A stretch of DNA of 64,000 nt, taken from Litchfieldia sinesaloumensis (GTDB taxonomy: Bacteria > Bacillota > Bacilli > Bacillales > Bacillaceae_L). Positions 4,205-63,249 of the stretch are shown in pieces. The translations under genes and the position numbers were made by a program. The notes beneath the pieces were generated by a model. It searched no databases, was not told where the DNA came from, and was given only the letters and a program-made list of their open reading frames with translations. The stretch lies in NCBI RefSeq assembly GCF_900156865.1, contig NZ_LT732529.1, forward strand, positions 3,260,057-3,324,056. Direction: 5' to 3'. Positions within the stretch are counted from its first letter, which is position 1. Each line of letters begins with the position of its first letter.

Positions 4205-4340
4205 TATACACCTTAATGCCGTTTATGAAGAGGAGTTGAAACTCATTTCTCAGCGGTTTTCCCTTTCATACCTCTTATGAAAGAGATATACGATGAAACC
4301 CACACGAAAATCCCCTTCATACCACTCATGAAGGGGATGT
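4205..4340. repeat. Three palindromes of the CTTCAT-N7-ATGAAG family at 52/51-bp spacing
   Basis: Three stem-loops share a 7-nt loop. The arms are CTTAAT/ATGAAG (right arm at 4225), CTTTCAT/ATGAAAG (right arm at 4277) and CCCCTTCAT/ATGAAGGGG (right arm at 4328). Right-arm spacings are 52 and 51 bp. The sequence between palindromes is not conserved. The architecture matches the large array at 47673-48972. No open frame runs through them. Confidence 0.75.
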
Positions 4341-9479: not shown

Positions 9480-9579
9480 GGTGGTGGTACGGGATTGGGG
9501 TAGATTCTTGCTTGGGGCGGAAATGCTGTTTTTTTCTTTTCCCGGATATTGTGCATGGTTTGATGTTGGCTATCCGTAT

Positions 9580-10537
9580 GGAATCATGCGCTTTTTTATT
9601 TGCGCATGGTTTCTTCACCGTTCCAACGAGGAAACGATGCGCATCTGTAAATACTTGTAATTATACTCCAATTCTAGTACTCTTTTTCCCACTTATTGGA
9701 TTATGCGCATGTTTTTTCTCATTTTCAATCATGAAAGCATGCGCATTTCTATTTGCGCATGCTTTCTGCTTCATTCCAACGTGGAAATGATGCACATCTG
9801 TAAATAATTGTAATTAAACTCCAATTCTAGTACTCTTTTTCCCACTTATTGGATTATGCGCATGTTTTTTCTCATTTTCAATCATGAAAGCATGCGCATT
9901 TCTATTTGCGCATGCTTTCTGCTTCATTCCAACTAGGAACTGATGTGGAACTGTAAATACTTGTAATTAAACTCCAATTCTAGTACTCTTTTTCCCACTT
10001 ATTGGATTATGCGCATGATTTTATCTCATCTTCAAACATGAAAGCATGCGGATTTCTATTTGCCCATGCTTTCTGCTTCATTCCAACGAGGAAATGATGC
10101 GCATCTGTAAATACTTGTAATTAAACTTCAATTCTAGTCCTCTTTTTTCCATTTATTGGATTAAGCACATGACTTTAACTCATCTTCAAACATAAAAGCA
10201 TGCGCATTTCTATTTGCGCATGCTTTCTTCTTCCTCCCATCTAAAAAACGATGCGCATCTGTAAATACTTGTATTAAACTTCAATTCTAGTACTCTTTTT
10301 CCCACTTATTGGTTTTTGCGCATGATTTTATCTCACCTACAAGTATTAAAGCATGCGCATTTCTATTTGCGCATGCTTTCTGCTTCCTTCCGACGAGGAA
10401 ACGATGCGAAACTGTAAATACTTGTAATTAAACTCCAATTCTAGTACTTTTTTCCCACTTATTGGGTTATGCGCATGGTTTTTTCTCACATATAAAGCAA
10501 GAAAGCATGCGCATTTCTTATTTGCGCATGCTTTTTT
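9580..10537. repeat. Tandem array of seven ~153-bp units, each with a GCATGCGCA hairpin
   Basis: The GCATGCGCA hairpin recurs at 9585 (degenerate), 9737, 9890, 10044, 10198, 10351 and 10505, giving periods of 152-154 bp. Each unit has AAAGCATGCGCA-N8-TGCGCATGCTTT, then a conserved segment with GATGCGCATC, TAAATACTTGTAATTAAAC, CTAGTACTC and TTTTTCCCACTTATTGG, then a second TATGCGCATG. Differences are mostly point changes. The array fills the space between the convergent NTF2-like and response-regulator genes, and no frame stays open across units. Confidence 0.9.
10502..10537. terminator. Last array hairpin, terminator-like
   Basis: AAAGCATGCGCA pairs with TGCGCATGCTTT and is followed by a T-rich stretch on the plus strand; on the minus strand it lies about 45 bp after the response-regulator stop. 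It may be the ancestral terminator from which the repeat unit spread. Confidence 0.5.
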
Positions 10538-10582
10538 CTCTTTTTCACTTAGAAATAGGGCTCAAGTCGTGATAATCCTAAC

Positions 10583-32525: not shown

Positions 32526-32543
32526 GTTTTCCCCTCCTAATCA

Positions 32544-32676
32544 AATACGCTTTGGCGTATTTGCGCCCGATTTTTTTCGAGCATGTCTCGAAAAATTTCC
32601 GCTGAAAAATCGTGGCATCCGCCTGGGGCTTTAACGATAAAGTGCAGAAGCCTTGCTTCTGTACTCTATTGTTAAA
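32544..32676. other. Three successive hairpins between symporter and regulator genes
   Basis: The spacer holds AATACGC-TTTG-GCGTATT, then TTTTTCGAG-CATGT-CTCGAAAAA, then a 22-bp stem (32631-32676) that includes CAGAAGC-CTT-GCTTCTG, with only a few wobbles or mismatches. No T run gives a clear terminator. It could be a processing or attenuation region, or an inserted palindromic repeat. Confidence 0.6.
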
Positions 32677-46588: not shown

Positions 46589-47476
46589 TTAGGCTTTTGC
46601 CATTCCGATTGAAGCATCAGTTGAACTTGCATTTTCCTCTTCGTCTGATTCTTCATCGTCAGCAGGAGTGCCTTCTTCATCTGCTGGCTTTTTATTGTCT
46701 TCTGGTTTCTCTTCTTCTTTTGGCTCTTCATCTTTTGCAGGCTGCTCATCTTCTTCTTTTGTTGCAGCTTCTTTGTCTTCTGCACTCTTCTCAAGTGAAG
46801 TTACAGATTGACCAAAGTGCTCAAGTGGATTTACAGCTACACCGTTGTTACGAATTTCAAAGTGAACGTGAATTCCTGCTTCTTGATCAAACTGATTTTC
46901 ACCAGCATTTCCAAGAACTTCACCTTGTTCTACAACGTCACCTTTTGCCACTTTTAAGTCTGCAAGAGATTGATACATTGTCACAACACCATCAGAATGC
47001 TCAATTTCTACAACATTTCCGTGTAATGGATCTTTTTCAGCACGTGTTACTGTTCCAGCTAATGATGCAACTACTTCAAATGCTTCGCCATTTTTAGCGA
47101 CGATGTCAATTCCTTTGTTCGGGGAATAAATATTGTTATAGACTACAAGAGCTGCTTCTTGCTTTTCTGCTGAAGCCTCTGCATCATAGAACTCCCTGAA
47201 TACTTGGATTGCATCTTCGTCAATTACAGGCATCTTAAAGTTTCCTGCTCCTTGGTTTACTGGTACAGTTGGCTCATCACCAGTAGCTGTTCCCGGTTGA
47301 TTCTCACCATATTTCAAATCATCCTCGGCTACCTCGTTATTGTTTGTGAACCATAAAACCGCGGTTAAGATTAGTGCTGCACTTACTAAATAGATTGCTG
47401 GAAATACCCAACGCTTTCTAAATAAACGTTGTAAACTTGTTTTTTGAGAAGTACGTTTCTTTTCTTCCTCTCTCAT
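46589..47476 (-). CDS. spoIIQ: Stage II sporulation protein Q
   Basis: The 295-residue forespore membrane protein forms the channel with SpoIIIAH during engulfment. ATG 47476 follows TGAGGTGATAAAC; the upstream frame to 47560 has no ribosome binding site. One membrane segment (about 24-45) leads to a LytM/M23-like domain (about 105-225). The HxH pair is kept (GIHVHFEIRNN), while the usual first His ligand position reads PNKGIDI, so endopeptidase activity is unlikely, as is known for Bacillus SpoIIQ. The last 65 residues are an acidic, Pro-containing tail (EEDEQPAKDEEPKEEEKPED in part). It lies between the 52-bp array and its own terminator. Confidence 0.95.
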   Translation of the reverse strand: MREEEKKRTSQKTSLQRLFRKRWVFPAIYLVSAALILTAVLWFTNNNEVAEDDLKYGENQPGTATGDEPTVPVNQGAGNFKMPVIDEDAIQVFREFYDAEASAEKQEAALVVYNNIYSPNKGIDIVAKNGEAFEVVASLAGTVTRAEKDPLHGNVVEIEHSDGVVTMYQSLADLKVAKGDVVEQGEVLGNAGENQFDQEAGIHVHFEIRNNGVAVNPLEHFGQSVTSLEKSAEDKEAATKEEDEQPAKDEEPKEEEKPEDNKKPADEEGTPADDEESDEEENASSTDASIGMAKA

Positions 47477-47672: not shown

Positions 47673-48972
47673 TATGAAGACCTCTTTCTTTGCGGTGGGA
47701 GTGCTTTCGAGTATTCATTACCTTGATGAAGACCTCTTTCTTTGCGGAGGGAGTGCTTTCGGGTCTTCATATGCTTGATGAAGACCTCTTTCTTCGCGGT
47801 GGACCTGCTTTCGGGTCTTCATTACCTTGATGAGGACATCTTTCTTTGCGGAGGGAGTGCTTTCGGGTCTTCATATGCTTGATGAAGACCTCTTTCTTCG
47901 CGGTGGACCTGCTTTCGGGTCTTCATATGCTTGATGAAGACCTCATTATTTGCGGAGGGAGTGCTTTCGAGTCTTCATATGCTTGATGAAGACCTCTTTC
48001 TTCGCGGTGAACTTGCTTTCGGGTCTTCATATGCTTGATGAAGACCTCTTTCTTCGCGGTGGACCTACTTTCGGGTCTTCATTACCTTGATGAAGACCTC
48101 TTTCTTCGCGGTGGATCTGCTTTCGGGTCTTCATATGCTTGATGAAGACCTCTTTCTTCGCGGTGGACCTGCTTTCGGGTCTTCATTACCTTGATGAGGA
48201 CCTCTTTCTTTGCGGAGGGATCTCTTTCAGGTCTTCATATGCTGGATGATGACCTCTTTCTTTACGGCGGACCTGCTTTCGAGTCTTCATTACCTTGATG
48301 AGGACATCTTTCTTTGCGGCGGACTTGCTTTCGGGTCTTCATAAGCTGGATGATGCCCTCTTTCTTTGCAGCGGACCTGCTTTCGAGTCTTCATTACCTT
48401 GATGAGGACATCTTTCTTTGCGGTGGACTTGTTTTCGGGTCTTCATTACCTTGATGAGGACATCTTTCTTTGCGGTGGACCTGCCTTCGAGTCTTCATTA
48501 CCTTGATGAAGACCTCTTTCTTTACGGCGGACTTGCTTTCGAGTCTTAATAAGCTGGATGATGGCCTCTTTCTTTGCGGTGGACTTGCTTTCGGGTCTTC
48601 ATTACCTTGATGATGACCTCTTTCTTTGCGGTGGACTTGCTTTCGGGTCTTCATTACCTTGATGATGACCTCTTTCTTTACGGCGGACTTGCTTTCGGGT
48701 CTTCAGTACCTTGATGAAGACCCTTTCTATGTAGTTGGCTCTCATTTAAGTCTTCATCAGCCCGATGAAGAGCATTCACATCGTCAACTCCTCTCCTTTT
48801 CCCCTTCATAACCACCATGAAGTGGATCCGCAACGCCTGCCTCTCTCCTTTTCTCCCTCATAACCTCCATGAAGAGGATTCACATCGTCTTCCTCTCTCC
48901 TTTTCCCCTTCATCACCCCCATGAAAAGGATTTACACCGCCATCACCTCACGCTCCCTTTCATAAACTCCCC
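47673..48972. repeat. 52-bp tandem array with CTTCAT-N7-ATGAAG palindromes, ~25 units
   Basis: ATGAAG or its variants begin at 47674, then every 52 bp to 48714, then at 48765, 48817, 48869 and 48921. At the junctions GGTCTTCAT-N7-ATGAAGACC forms a 9-bp stem with a 7-nt loop. The first 21 units share a spacer (CTCTTTCTTTGCGGTGGACC, then TGCTTTCG); the last four have a different spacer (ATTCACATCG ... CTCCTTTTCCC) but keep palindrome, loop length and spacing. Some units carry ATGAGGAC or ATGATGAC in one arm without a matching change in the other. Fifty-two is not divisible by three, so it does not encode a repeat protein. It fills the divergent spacer of spoIIQ and the vanZ-like gene. Confidence 0.95.
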
Positions 48973-49092: not shown

Positions 49093-49539
49093 ATGAAAGC
49101 TTTTTTACGGTTTCTACTATTAATCGCGCCATTTTTATATATGATGTTAATTTTTATTTTATCTAGTCTTCCCGCGGATGCGATAGTGAATACTCCGTAC
49201 TCTTGGGATAGTGCTTTTAAAGAATCCCTACATTTAATCGAGTTCGGTATTCTTTATGGATTGTGGGTGTTGTTTTTCCTTGTTCGAGGTACGTTCACGG
49301 CCAAAACAAGTACTCTTGCCGCAATTCTTTCAATCGCTTATGGATTTAGTGACGAGCTTCATCAATACTTTGTTCCTTATCGTTCCGCTACTGTCATTGA
49401 TTTGGTGAAAGACACGATCGGTGTGATCGTACTCTTTTATATCGTAAAAATCAGTTATTTTGGTGAGAAGCTTCCACGATTCAAAAAGTTGCTCCTTTGG
49501 GTGGAAAGGCTAAACAGCAAAAAAGCAGAGGGAAATTAA
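49093..49539 (+). CDS. VanZ-family membrane protein
   Basis: The 148-residue protein has four membrane segments and the VanZ motifs IFILSSLP, DSAFKESLHLIEFGILYG, SIAYGFSDELHQYFVPYRSATVIDLVKDTIG (in parts). ATG 49093 follows AAAAAGGAG; a start at 49051 would lack a ribosome binding site. VanZ-like proteins are named after a teicoplanin-resistance factor, but most have unknown roles. It shares a bidirectional terminator with spoIID. Confidence 0.9.
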   Translation: MKAFLRFLLLIAPFLYMMLIFILSSLPADAIVNTPYSWDSAFKESLHLIEFGILYGLWVLFFLVRGTFTAKTSTLAAILSIAYGFSDELHQYFVPYRSATVIDLVKDTIGVIVLFYIVKISYFGEKLPRFKKLLLWVERLNSKKAEGN

Positions 49540-61863: not shown

Positions 61864-63249
61864 CTACACCTCCACATCAAACGGTTCATAGTCTTTTCTA
61901 AGTGGATGTCCTACCCAGTCATCTGGTAATAGAATTCGTGTTAGATTTGGGTGTCCTTCAAATTTTATTCCGAGTAAATCATAAGCTTCTCGCTCAGGCC
62001 AATTTGCCCCTTCCCATAAAGGCTGCAATGATGCGATTGTTGGCTCATCACGCTCAATTATTACTTTTAGCGCTACGGATTGACGTTTTTTATAGGAGAA
62101 TAAATGAACATATACCTCCATATGCGTCTGGAAGTCTGTGCCATGCAATTCGGAAAGATAATCGAATCCAAGCTGTTCATTGTATTTTAAAAACTGTGCT
62201 ACTTTAAAATATGTATCTGGCTTTGCAACTAGGGTTGGTACGTCCTTTGAAAGTGTATTAATATATGAATCTACCAAAACGTCATCACCTAAATGTTTAG
62301 TGATAACATCAACGTATTTATCCAAATAGGGTTGGTTTTGTGAAGGCTTTACTTCTTCTACTTCTTCCGTTGCCCCACCAGCACCAGCTGCTTTCGCCCT
62401 CGCTGCTGCCGCGGCCTTGGCCTTTGCCGCTGCGATTGCTTTTGCCTTTTCTTTGGCTGGATCGTCTGAACCTCCGCCAGCTTCCGCTTTTGCTTTTGCC
62501 GCTGCCGCCGCTTTTGCCTTAGCTGCTGCTACTGCCTTCGCTTTGGCTTTTGCTAGTTCATCATCGTCTGATCCCGCACCAGCCTTTTCTGCCGCCTTTT
62601 GCTTTGCCAACGCCGCTGCCTTGGCTTTCGCTGCTGCTACTGCTTTGGCCTTCGCCTTTGCTAGGTCATCGTCTCCAGCTTCTCCAGCAGCCTTTTGCTT
62701 CGCTAATGCGGCAGCCTTGGCTTTCGCTGCCGCTGCTGCTTTTGCCTTTGCCGCCGCTGTTGCTTTGGCTTTCGCTGTTGCTTTATCATCCGTATCTAAT
62801 GATTCCGCAGATGCCGACTCCGATGCCTTTTGCTTCGCTATTGCGGCAGCCTTTGCCTTTGCCGCCGCTGCTGCTTTGGCTTTCGCTGTTGCTTTATCAT
62901 CCGTATCTGATGTTTCAGCTGATGCCGACTCCGATGCCTTTTGCTTCGCTATTGCGACAGCCTTTGCCTTTGCCGCTGCTGCTGCTTTGGCTTTCGCTGT
63001 TGCTTTATCATCCGTATCTGATGTTTCAGTCGATGCGGACTCCGATGCCTTTTGCTTCGCTATTGCGGCCGCTTTCGCTTTCGCCGCCGCTGCTGCCTTG
63101 GCCTTCGCAATATCGATATTCTCTTCCTTGGATTCACCTTCACTTTTCGTTTCAGCCGCTTGTTTTTCAGCTAACCTCTTTTTCGCGGCTTCTTTCGCCC
63201 TCTCAGCCGCCTCTCGCTTAAGTTGTTCCAGGTCCTTCTCATCGCTCAC
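61864..63249 (-). CDS. nuoC: NADH-quinone oxidoreductase subunit C with long Ala/Lys-rich extension
   Basis: The 461-residue protein has a conserved C-terminal core (about 310-461; FDYLSELHGTDF, WPEREAYDLLGIKFEGHP, RILLPDDWVGHPLRKDYEP in parts). Residues about 45-305 are low-complexity helix, with AKAKAAAAAKAKA blocks separated by acidic SDTDDKAT or GSDDDELAK linkers. At DNA level three units repeat every 111 bp (around 62831, 62942, 63053). Such extensions are known in Bacillus NuoC. GTG 63249 follows AAGGTGATT. The extension looks like a long single helix or surface spacer; its role is unknown. Confidence 0.93.
   Translation of the reverse strand: MSDEKDLEQLKREAAERAKEAAKKRLAEKQAAETKSEGESKEENIDIAKAKAAAAAKAKAAAIAKQKASESASTETSDTDDKATAKAKAAAAAKAKAVAIAKQKASESASAETSDTDDKATAKAKAAAAAKAKAAAIAKQKASESASAESLDTDDKATAKAKATAAAKAKAAAAAKAKAAALAKQKAAGEAGDDDLAKAKAKAVAAAKAKAAALAKQKAAEKAGAGSDDDELAKAKAKAVAAAKAKAAAAAKAKAEAGGGSDDPAKEKAKAIAAAKAKAAAAARAKAAGAGGATEEVEEVKPSQNQPYLDKYVDVITKHLGDDVLVDSYINTLSKDVPTLVAKPDTYFKVAQFLKYNEQLGFDYLSELHGTDFQTHMEVYVHLFSYKKRQSVALKVIIERDEPTIASLQPLWEGANWPEREAYDLLGIKFEGHPNLTRILLPDDWVGHPLRKDYEPFDVEV

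Follow-up and report, generated by a model that had tools for sequence, protein, structure and literature searches.

Dispersed intergenic palindromes of the REP type occur in bacteria together with RAYT genes, which are nuclease-type genes lying beside their own palindromes and encoding HUH (Y1) enzymes. In type III toxin-antitoxin systems a repeat array lies upstream of the toxin gene. Tandem repeats of 52 nt and of 20-21 nt, constant in size and variable in sequence, were described in Bacillus by Subirana and Messeguer (PMC8161180). They found the sequences not to be conserved from one species to another, saw no sign of a Cas-like protein that might interact with the repeats, and named a protein polymerising on the repeats, or small RNAs, as possible roles. 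A figure legend in PMC10910872 lists NERD among putative CRISPR auxiliary genes, and the passages concerned draw no tie to repeats of the 52-bp type. Constant-size bacterial satellites have so far been without a known function or partner; a gene located at its own array opens that question to experiment.

The array described here lies in a stretch of 64,000 nucleotides from Litchfieldia sinesaloumensis (the window) and belongs to the published, unexplained class of 52-nt Bacillus tandem repeats. The first-pass annotation of the window knew of no described element of this form, which is wrong in view of the published 52-nt Bacillus repeats (PMC8161180).

The array between spoIIQ and vanZ

The array and its two neighbours are as follows.

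46592-47476, reverse strand: spoIIQ, left neighbour of the array (NF053738, 337 bits, cut-off 250)
47674-48728, no strand assigned: main sub-array, a half-palindrome at 47674 and then 20 palindromes (47713-48719) of the form GGTCTTCAT-N7-ATGAAGACC in 52-bp steps
48752-48936, no strand assigned: second sub-array, 4 palindromes with a different spacer and with outer arms near TCCCCTTCAT / ATGAAGAGGA, following the main sub-array at a step of 51 bp
49096-49539, forward strand: VanZ-family gene, right neighbour of the array (NF037970, 67 bits, cut-off 20)

The array is real. Allowing up to two mismatches, we found 35 matches to CTTCAT-N7-ATGAAG in the window versus 4.5 expected (sd 2.1; maximum of 9 in 100 shuffles). 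The array accounts for 24 of these, 20 of them at 47713-48719 and the others at 48752, 48804, 48856 and 48908, the last of which ends at 48926. Together with the half-palindrome ATGAAGACC at 47674 that precedes the 24 full sites, this agrees with the earlier figure of about 25 palindromes, and the intervals reported as 52 bp with a single exception proved to be 22 of 52 bp and one of 51 bp. Since Tandem Repeats Finder reports two separate 52-bp arrays, 47674-48728 (20.3 copies) and 48752-48936 (3.6 copies), the switch of spacer that had been placed after unit 21 is confirmed at about unit 20/21. The location given to the array, between spoIIQ and a vanZ-like gene, was also correct, the two genes being divergent and identified by their NF053738 and NF037970 matches.

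An array is present in the spoIIQ-vanZ gap of eight of the nine genomes of the genus, with 5 to 24 sites; the gap of the remaining genome, G008, has no array. Comparison of the eight consensus units from this gap (28 pairs) gave an identity of 76% in the arms, 63% in the loop and 45% in the spacer. At 47 loci searched with a free gap between palindromes, successive spacings were 52 bp in 232 of 242 cases, 51 bp in six, 53 bp in three and 48 bp in one. The first-pass annotation had argued that the spacing is constrained beyond what recent duplication would leave, and the occupied gaps, the uniform spacings and arms that outlast the spacer all bear this out. It had also proposed searching the genome and its relatives for the palindrome and comparing array length between relatives. 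CTTCAT-N7-ATGAAG does recur throughout the genome, at 54 exact sites per strand versus 1 for the reversed control, as it does in the occupied gaps of the genus, where array length varies over the range given above. The spoIIQ-vanZ arrays give the impression of long residence rather than of high mobility.

Palindrome core and distribution

The core of the repeat is a 27-bp palindrome of the form 10-N7-10, in which array-consensus pairing spans ten positions on either side of a 7-bp loop. This was derived from 148 arrays comprising 1054 sites, after arrays with fewer than 3 sites, overlapping loci and 4 duplicates among 152 arrays had been left out; many of the 148 were retrieved with a fixed 52-bp pattern, and hence the set is no test of spacing. 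The inner six pairs are near invariant, and pairs 7, 8, 9 and 10 are paired in 72, 78, 86 and 61% of the arrays. Compensated changes are seen at pair 7 (CG in 56 arrays, TA in 49) and at pair 8 (GC in 53, TA in 47, CG in 10 and AT in 5). The earlier statement that arm changes are often uncompensated therefore stands within arrays but fails between arrays, where outer pairs such as pair 8 change by compensation. The central base of the loop is G or C in 120 of the 148 arrays, and the first and last bases of the loop are mostly non-pairing.

Among the matches listed, 48 of the 397 genomes of the order, belonging to 23 of its 135 genera, contain exact pairs of the CTTCAT palindrome with a free gap of 18-48 bp; reversed-control pairs with the same free gap numbered 0 in every genome listed. 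The named hosts among the matches listed are Fredinandcohnia, Sutcliffiella, Metabacillus, Neobacillus, Mesobacillus, Peribacillus, Heyndrickxia, Ureibacillus, Lysinibacillus and Ammoniphilus.

A NERD gene family beside the arrays

The proteins flanking the arrays were clustered without a prior hypothesis. The 264 proteins fell into 227 clusters, the largest of which, with nine members (the next had four), consists of a protein of about 304 amino acids with a NERD (PD-(D/E)XK-type) domain and a zinc ribbon that recurs beside arrays. A partner gene was not among the observations of the first-pass annotation. At the nine clustered loci, gene and array are 34-141 bp apart and the array is 3' of the gene in eight. 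A larger set of 74 full-length copies gave the same picture, 69 having a 51-53-bp array that begins 3-235 bp beyond the 3' end (median 66) and two more having one on the 5' side. The three copies without a 51-53-bp array are L195, which has periodic CTTCAT-type sites, L271, which has a 155-bp array, and L213, where no array was found. The 74 copies consist of 29 of the best 30 loci, 40 stretches and 5 others, and 40 of the genes were chosen among the matches listed, blind to arrays; the count covers 99 loci, with 2 lacking an HMM match and 7 fragments counted apart. None of 16 distant NERD genes had units of 49-55 bp, and nine of them had 20-21- or 42-bp units within 300 bp. As a base rate, 2 of 49 ORFs in the window lie that close to any of the window's three arrays. 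These loci establish the adjacency of gene and array.

The association is also apparent between genomes. With the five best candidates per genome scored, the NERD family was present in 45 of 48 genomes with CTTCAT pairs versus 103 of 349 without, among the matches listed (Fisher p 2.5e-18, a value that ignores kinship). Of 56 genomes inspected, with some but not all gene copies covered, 21 of the 28 rich in arrays had a gene followed on its 3' side by a CTTCAT-type array, versus 7 of the 28 others (p 4e-4); the other 7 array-rich genomes had no such gene among the copies examined. Three genomes, G009 (79 pairs), G063 and G351, contain CTTCAT arrays but only distant NERD genes, the close gene having been lost, diverged or missed. 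Of 71 units from arrays next to a gene, only 40 contained a significant palindrome. Genes with more similar proteins also have more similar units (Mantel r 0.56, p 0.001; 49 genes). Of the 74 genes, 51 were kept and the others, with stops or open ends, were set aside. Most genes of this family have their own palindrome.

Many arrays have no such neighbour: the 2-8 kb surrounding 127 of 136 CTTCAT arrays contained no gene trace. For this reason we rejected the idea that the arrays are remnants of lost gene-array modules. In the genome G131, near-identical units are found at 1.387, 1.720 and 2.175 Mb (among the matches listed). Gene-less arrays and near-identical units at distant loci fit a process of spreading in trans, without proving it. 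In both G004 and G007, the array in the spoIIQ-vanZ gap has the same outer arms (GGGACTTCAT / ATGAAGGACTTTAC) as the NERD-adjacent array of that genome.

Other arrays in the window and gene copies in its genome

Two further arrays were identified within the window.

4212-4333, no strand assigned: small array of the same family as the spoIIQ-vanZ array, 3 palindromes at 4212, 4264 and 4315
9578-10539, no strand assigned: array of another family, period 153-154 with a weak sub-period of 51, palindrome GCATGCGCA..TGCGCATGC

The three-unit array at 4212-4333, which carries the same palindrome as the spoIIQ-vanZ array, was absent from the first-pass annotation. Contig C3 of the same genome contains three full-length NERD gene copies, at 4109787-4110695, 2162143-2163051 and 4025490-4026401, as well as fragments. 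The first copy has a 52-bp array of the form TGTCGTCAT-N7-ATGAAGACA, close to the GGTCTTCAT-N7-ATGAAGACC of the window. The third copy has a 155-bp array 3' of the gene, with 67% identity over 402 bp to window positions 9578-10539, and GCATGCGCA..TGCGCATG occurs at four places in the genome, including this gene's array and the one in the window (none for the reversed control). From these similarities to the arrays of the first and third copies, the window appears to contain dispersed arrays of two NERD gene copies.

Three other observations concern this genome. A 43-bp stretch of the window at 32535-32575 shares 91% identity with sequence on the 3' side of the second NERD gene (L264), past that gene's array. 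A broken NERD fragment (L282, near 3530029 of G000:C3) still has a 52-bp array of the TGTCCGAAG type on its 3' side and is a decaying copy. Repeats at 62484-63108 of the window have periods of 24 and 111, both multiples of three, and probably code for an alanine-rich protein.

Unit length and helical turns

Related NERD genes elsewhere, identified by a class-wide search (45 of 398 genomes at E <= 1e-30, among the matches listed), adjoin arrays of 41, 42, 62-63 and 21 bp. We assembled 133 genes that have an array no more than 300 bp away, leaving out 6 duplicate loci and arrays with fewer than 2.2 copies or a unit below 18 bp. Unit length was 20-21 bp in 25 of these, 40-43 bp in 13, 51-53 bp in 81 and 61-63 bp in 8, with one each of 82, 83, 93, 103, 155 and 164 bp; units of 22-39, 44-50 or 54-60 bp were absent from all 133 gene-adjacent arrays. 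The best-fitting step was 10.5 bp (R 0.96 over 34 family-length combinations; 0.956 at 10.4), and a conservative test on the four class means of unit length gave p 0.0034. The exceptions found by Tandem Repeats Finder belong to one family, f49, and have units of 46/93 bp (L383), 22/49/82 bp (L377) and 14/31 bp (L378 and L391, excluded from the 133 genes by their 14-bp units). Allowing for exceptions, unit lengths group around whole numbers of helical turns. The helical phasing proposed in the first-pass annotation thus finds support from an unexpected side, in nuclease-gene subfamilies with arrays of about 2, 4, 5 and 6 turns.

A control survey covered 60 NERD genes chosen among the matches listed, blind to arrays. 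Arrays lay within 300 bp of 33 of the 39 NERD genes from Bacilli and of 0 of the 21 from other classes of the phylum; the NERD domain alone is therefore no predictor of arrays. Among the 30 loci with the best-scoring NERD domains, any repeat row was present at five, with 1.9-9.2 copies. The helical rule for unit length would take in the published 20-21-nt class. A unit length in helical turns that varies with protein subfamily would, if true, be a rare genome-wide readout of protein-DNA geometry.

The NERD protein

Four family members matched NERD (PF08378) at 51-67 bits (cut-off 22.1), and the domain was matched in all 42 sequences compared. D77, K92 and four cysteines are invariant in the 42 sequences; E90 is invariant in 7. 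The AlphaFold2 model has a mean pLDDT of 93.2 and a pTM of 0.85. Its first Foldseek matches were VC1899, R2 retrotransposon proteins, AF1548, the R.BspD6I subunit, Bax1, Card1, Nt.BspD6I and Can2, which we take to be mostly PD-(D/E)XK nucleases; TM-scores were low (about 0.2-0.3) and a single match had E <0.001. A sequence search of solved structures gave nothing convincing for this protein. The conserved catalytic D and (D/E)xK, together with a predicted restriction-type fold, place the NERD protein among the putative PD-(D/E)XK nucleases.

Two other readings were considered and set aside. The similarity of the NERD domain to PglW and MAD6 is weak (E 0.0047 to 1.1e-5), and membership of a defence system was rejected. 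Core sites of a tyrosine recombinase, with arms flanking N7, were rejected as well, a recurrent recombinase beside the arrays being absent among the clustered flanking proteins.

Proposed mechanism

Palindrome geometry, gene-array adjacency, clustered unit lengths, gene-less arrays, conserved catalytic and zinc residues and the predicted fold are the observations from which the following model starts. The spoIIQ-vanZ array would be a dispersed, gene-less copy of a two-part system: a gene and, immediately 3' of it, a palindrome array. The protein of about 304 amino acids that this gene encodes combines a NERD domain of the PD-(D/E)XK nuclease type with a zinc ribbon of four cysteines and a conserved C-terminal stretch. 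The NERD protein most likely binds its own palindrome as a symmetric dimer. Neighbouring dimers may sit on one face of the helix, which would explain units of a whole number of turns. The bound arrays might then be nicked or cut, and copying repair could expand and homogenise them and seed copies elsewhere in trans, which would account for the location of most arrays away from any NERD gene. Recognition of the cognate palindrome on one helix face by the NERD protein, with propagation and homogenisation of arrays in trans, is the explanation that we somewhat favour, recognition and spreading being steps that we infer. Counting against it are the three genomes that have arrays but only distant NERD genes, the imperfect agreement between array-rich genomes and genes with a CTTCAT-type 3' array, the gene-adjacent units lacking a significant palindrome, the aberrant unit lengths of family f49, the low Foldseek scores, the apparent longevity of the spoIIQ-vanZ arrays and the NERD genes of other classes without arrays. 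Whether the zinc-ribbon NERD proteins constitute a new nuclease-repeat system of Bacilli, assembling on one helix face with units of two, four, five or six turns according to subfamily, propagating in trans and explaining both the 20-21- and 52-nt classes, we regard as an even question.

The same phasing at whole helical turns could serve a structural platform, in which cooperative coating of the arrays by the NERD protein, or by a different one, would organise or mark the chromosome. The nuclease would then be inactive on arrays or cut other DNA, and the arrays would be retained for this purpose and spread slowly by ordinary recombination. Such a role was suggested in PMC8161180 for an unnamed protein, and occupation of the same gap in eight of nine genomes of the genus would be expected of it. 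However, the distribution is patchy (48 of 397 genomes, among the matches listed), near-identical units lie at distant loci, and the invariance of D77 and K92 in 42 sequences argues for an active enzyme. We consider a platform of this kind rather unlikely.

DNA or RNA

A transcribed array is another candidate, in which hairpin RNAs would guide, inhibit or feed the nuclease in the manner of type III toxin-antitoxin systems. A nuclease-type gene does adjoin the array, and the 52-nt arrays of B. coagulans are reported to be transcribed (PMC8625621). Purines are enriched on the same strand in loops and spacers (r 0.69; sign agreement in 85% of 148 arrays). This asymmetry at first seemed a sign of RNA, a reading that was dropped, as the strand whose loops are rich in G or purines coincides with the presumed leading strand at 62 of 77 sites on eight chromosomes with dnaA located (sites hand-chosen from genome listings, the terminus being assumed opposite dnaA) and as the arms lack a G-U preference. 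One-sided arm changes comprised 113 G-U, 164 A-C and 312 other mismatches versus 47 compensated changes, with no G-U excess, in a count that leaves out arrays with little strand asymmetry. Because the asymmetry tracks the leading strand and the arms have no such preference, RNA structure is disfavoured as the main constraint, although not conclusively, and DNA is mildly favoured, in line with the first-pass preference for DNA binding over RNA folding. The purine- or G-rich strand is also opposite to the gene in 53 of 69 NERD-adjacent arrays (L184-L253), Rfam gave 0 matches in the window at the gathering score, and most arrays are far from a NERD gene. Taken with these points, a role for array transcripts seems improbable to us. 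NERD genes were on the same strand as their neighbours in 20 cases and on the opposite strand in 20.

Neutral satellites, in which an old 52-bp unit multiplies by slippage and unequal crossing-over and the gene is a mere passenger, would suit homogenised arrays that differ in length between species and are only partially conserved between strains (PMC8161180), but are very improbable given an array at the 3' end of 69 of 74 genes, other unit lengths in other subfamilies and a palindrome more conserved than its spacer.

Comparison with known systems

The arrays themselves are not new. We found no prior description of the gene-array link or of the helical rule in a search of the open-access literature, and as far as that search shows, the gene-array system and the length rule are new. 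The published 52-nt repeats of Bacillus resemble the arrays described here in their unit of 51-53 bp, many arrays per genome, the same length with different sequence, a patchy taxonomy and hosts among Bacillus and related Firmicutes (among the matches listed). Of 27 consensus units taken from Table 1 of PMC8161180, 13 contain a palindrome that is significant against shuffles (p <= 0.005), in some cases of the form 10-N7-10. In contrast to that description, the present arrays share a palindrome, are accompanied by a family of partner genes and follow a helical rule in their unit length.

Type III toxin-antitoxin systems and CRISPR arrays also have a repeat array adjoining a nuclease-type gene. 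The NERD-associated array is, however, 3' of the gene in 69 of 74 cases and 5' in 2, unlike the arrangement in type III systems. CRISPR arrays have unique spacers, whereas spacers are near-identical within each array here and the arrays are scattered. The regular NERD-side arrays could pass for CRISPR arrays in repeat finders.

REP/RAYT is similar in that a gene adjoins its own palindromes and most copies lie elsewhere. It differs in its HUH Y1 transposase, whereas the recurrent neighbour here is a NERD protein with a zinc ribbon, and the arrays found here are regular tandem arrays of fixed unit length. If the NERD protein does spread arrays in trans, this would be a transposase-like use of a PD-(D/E)XK protein, parallel but unrelated to RAYT/REP.
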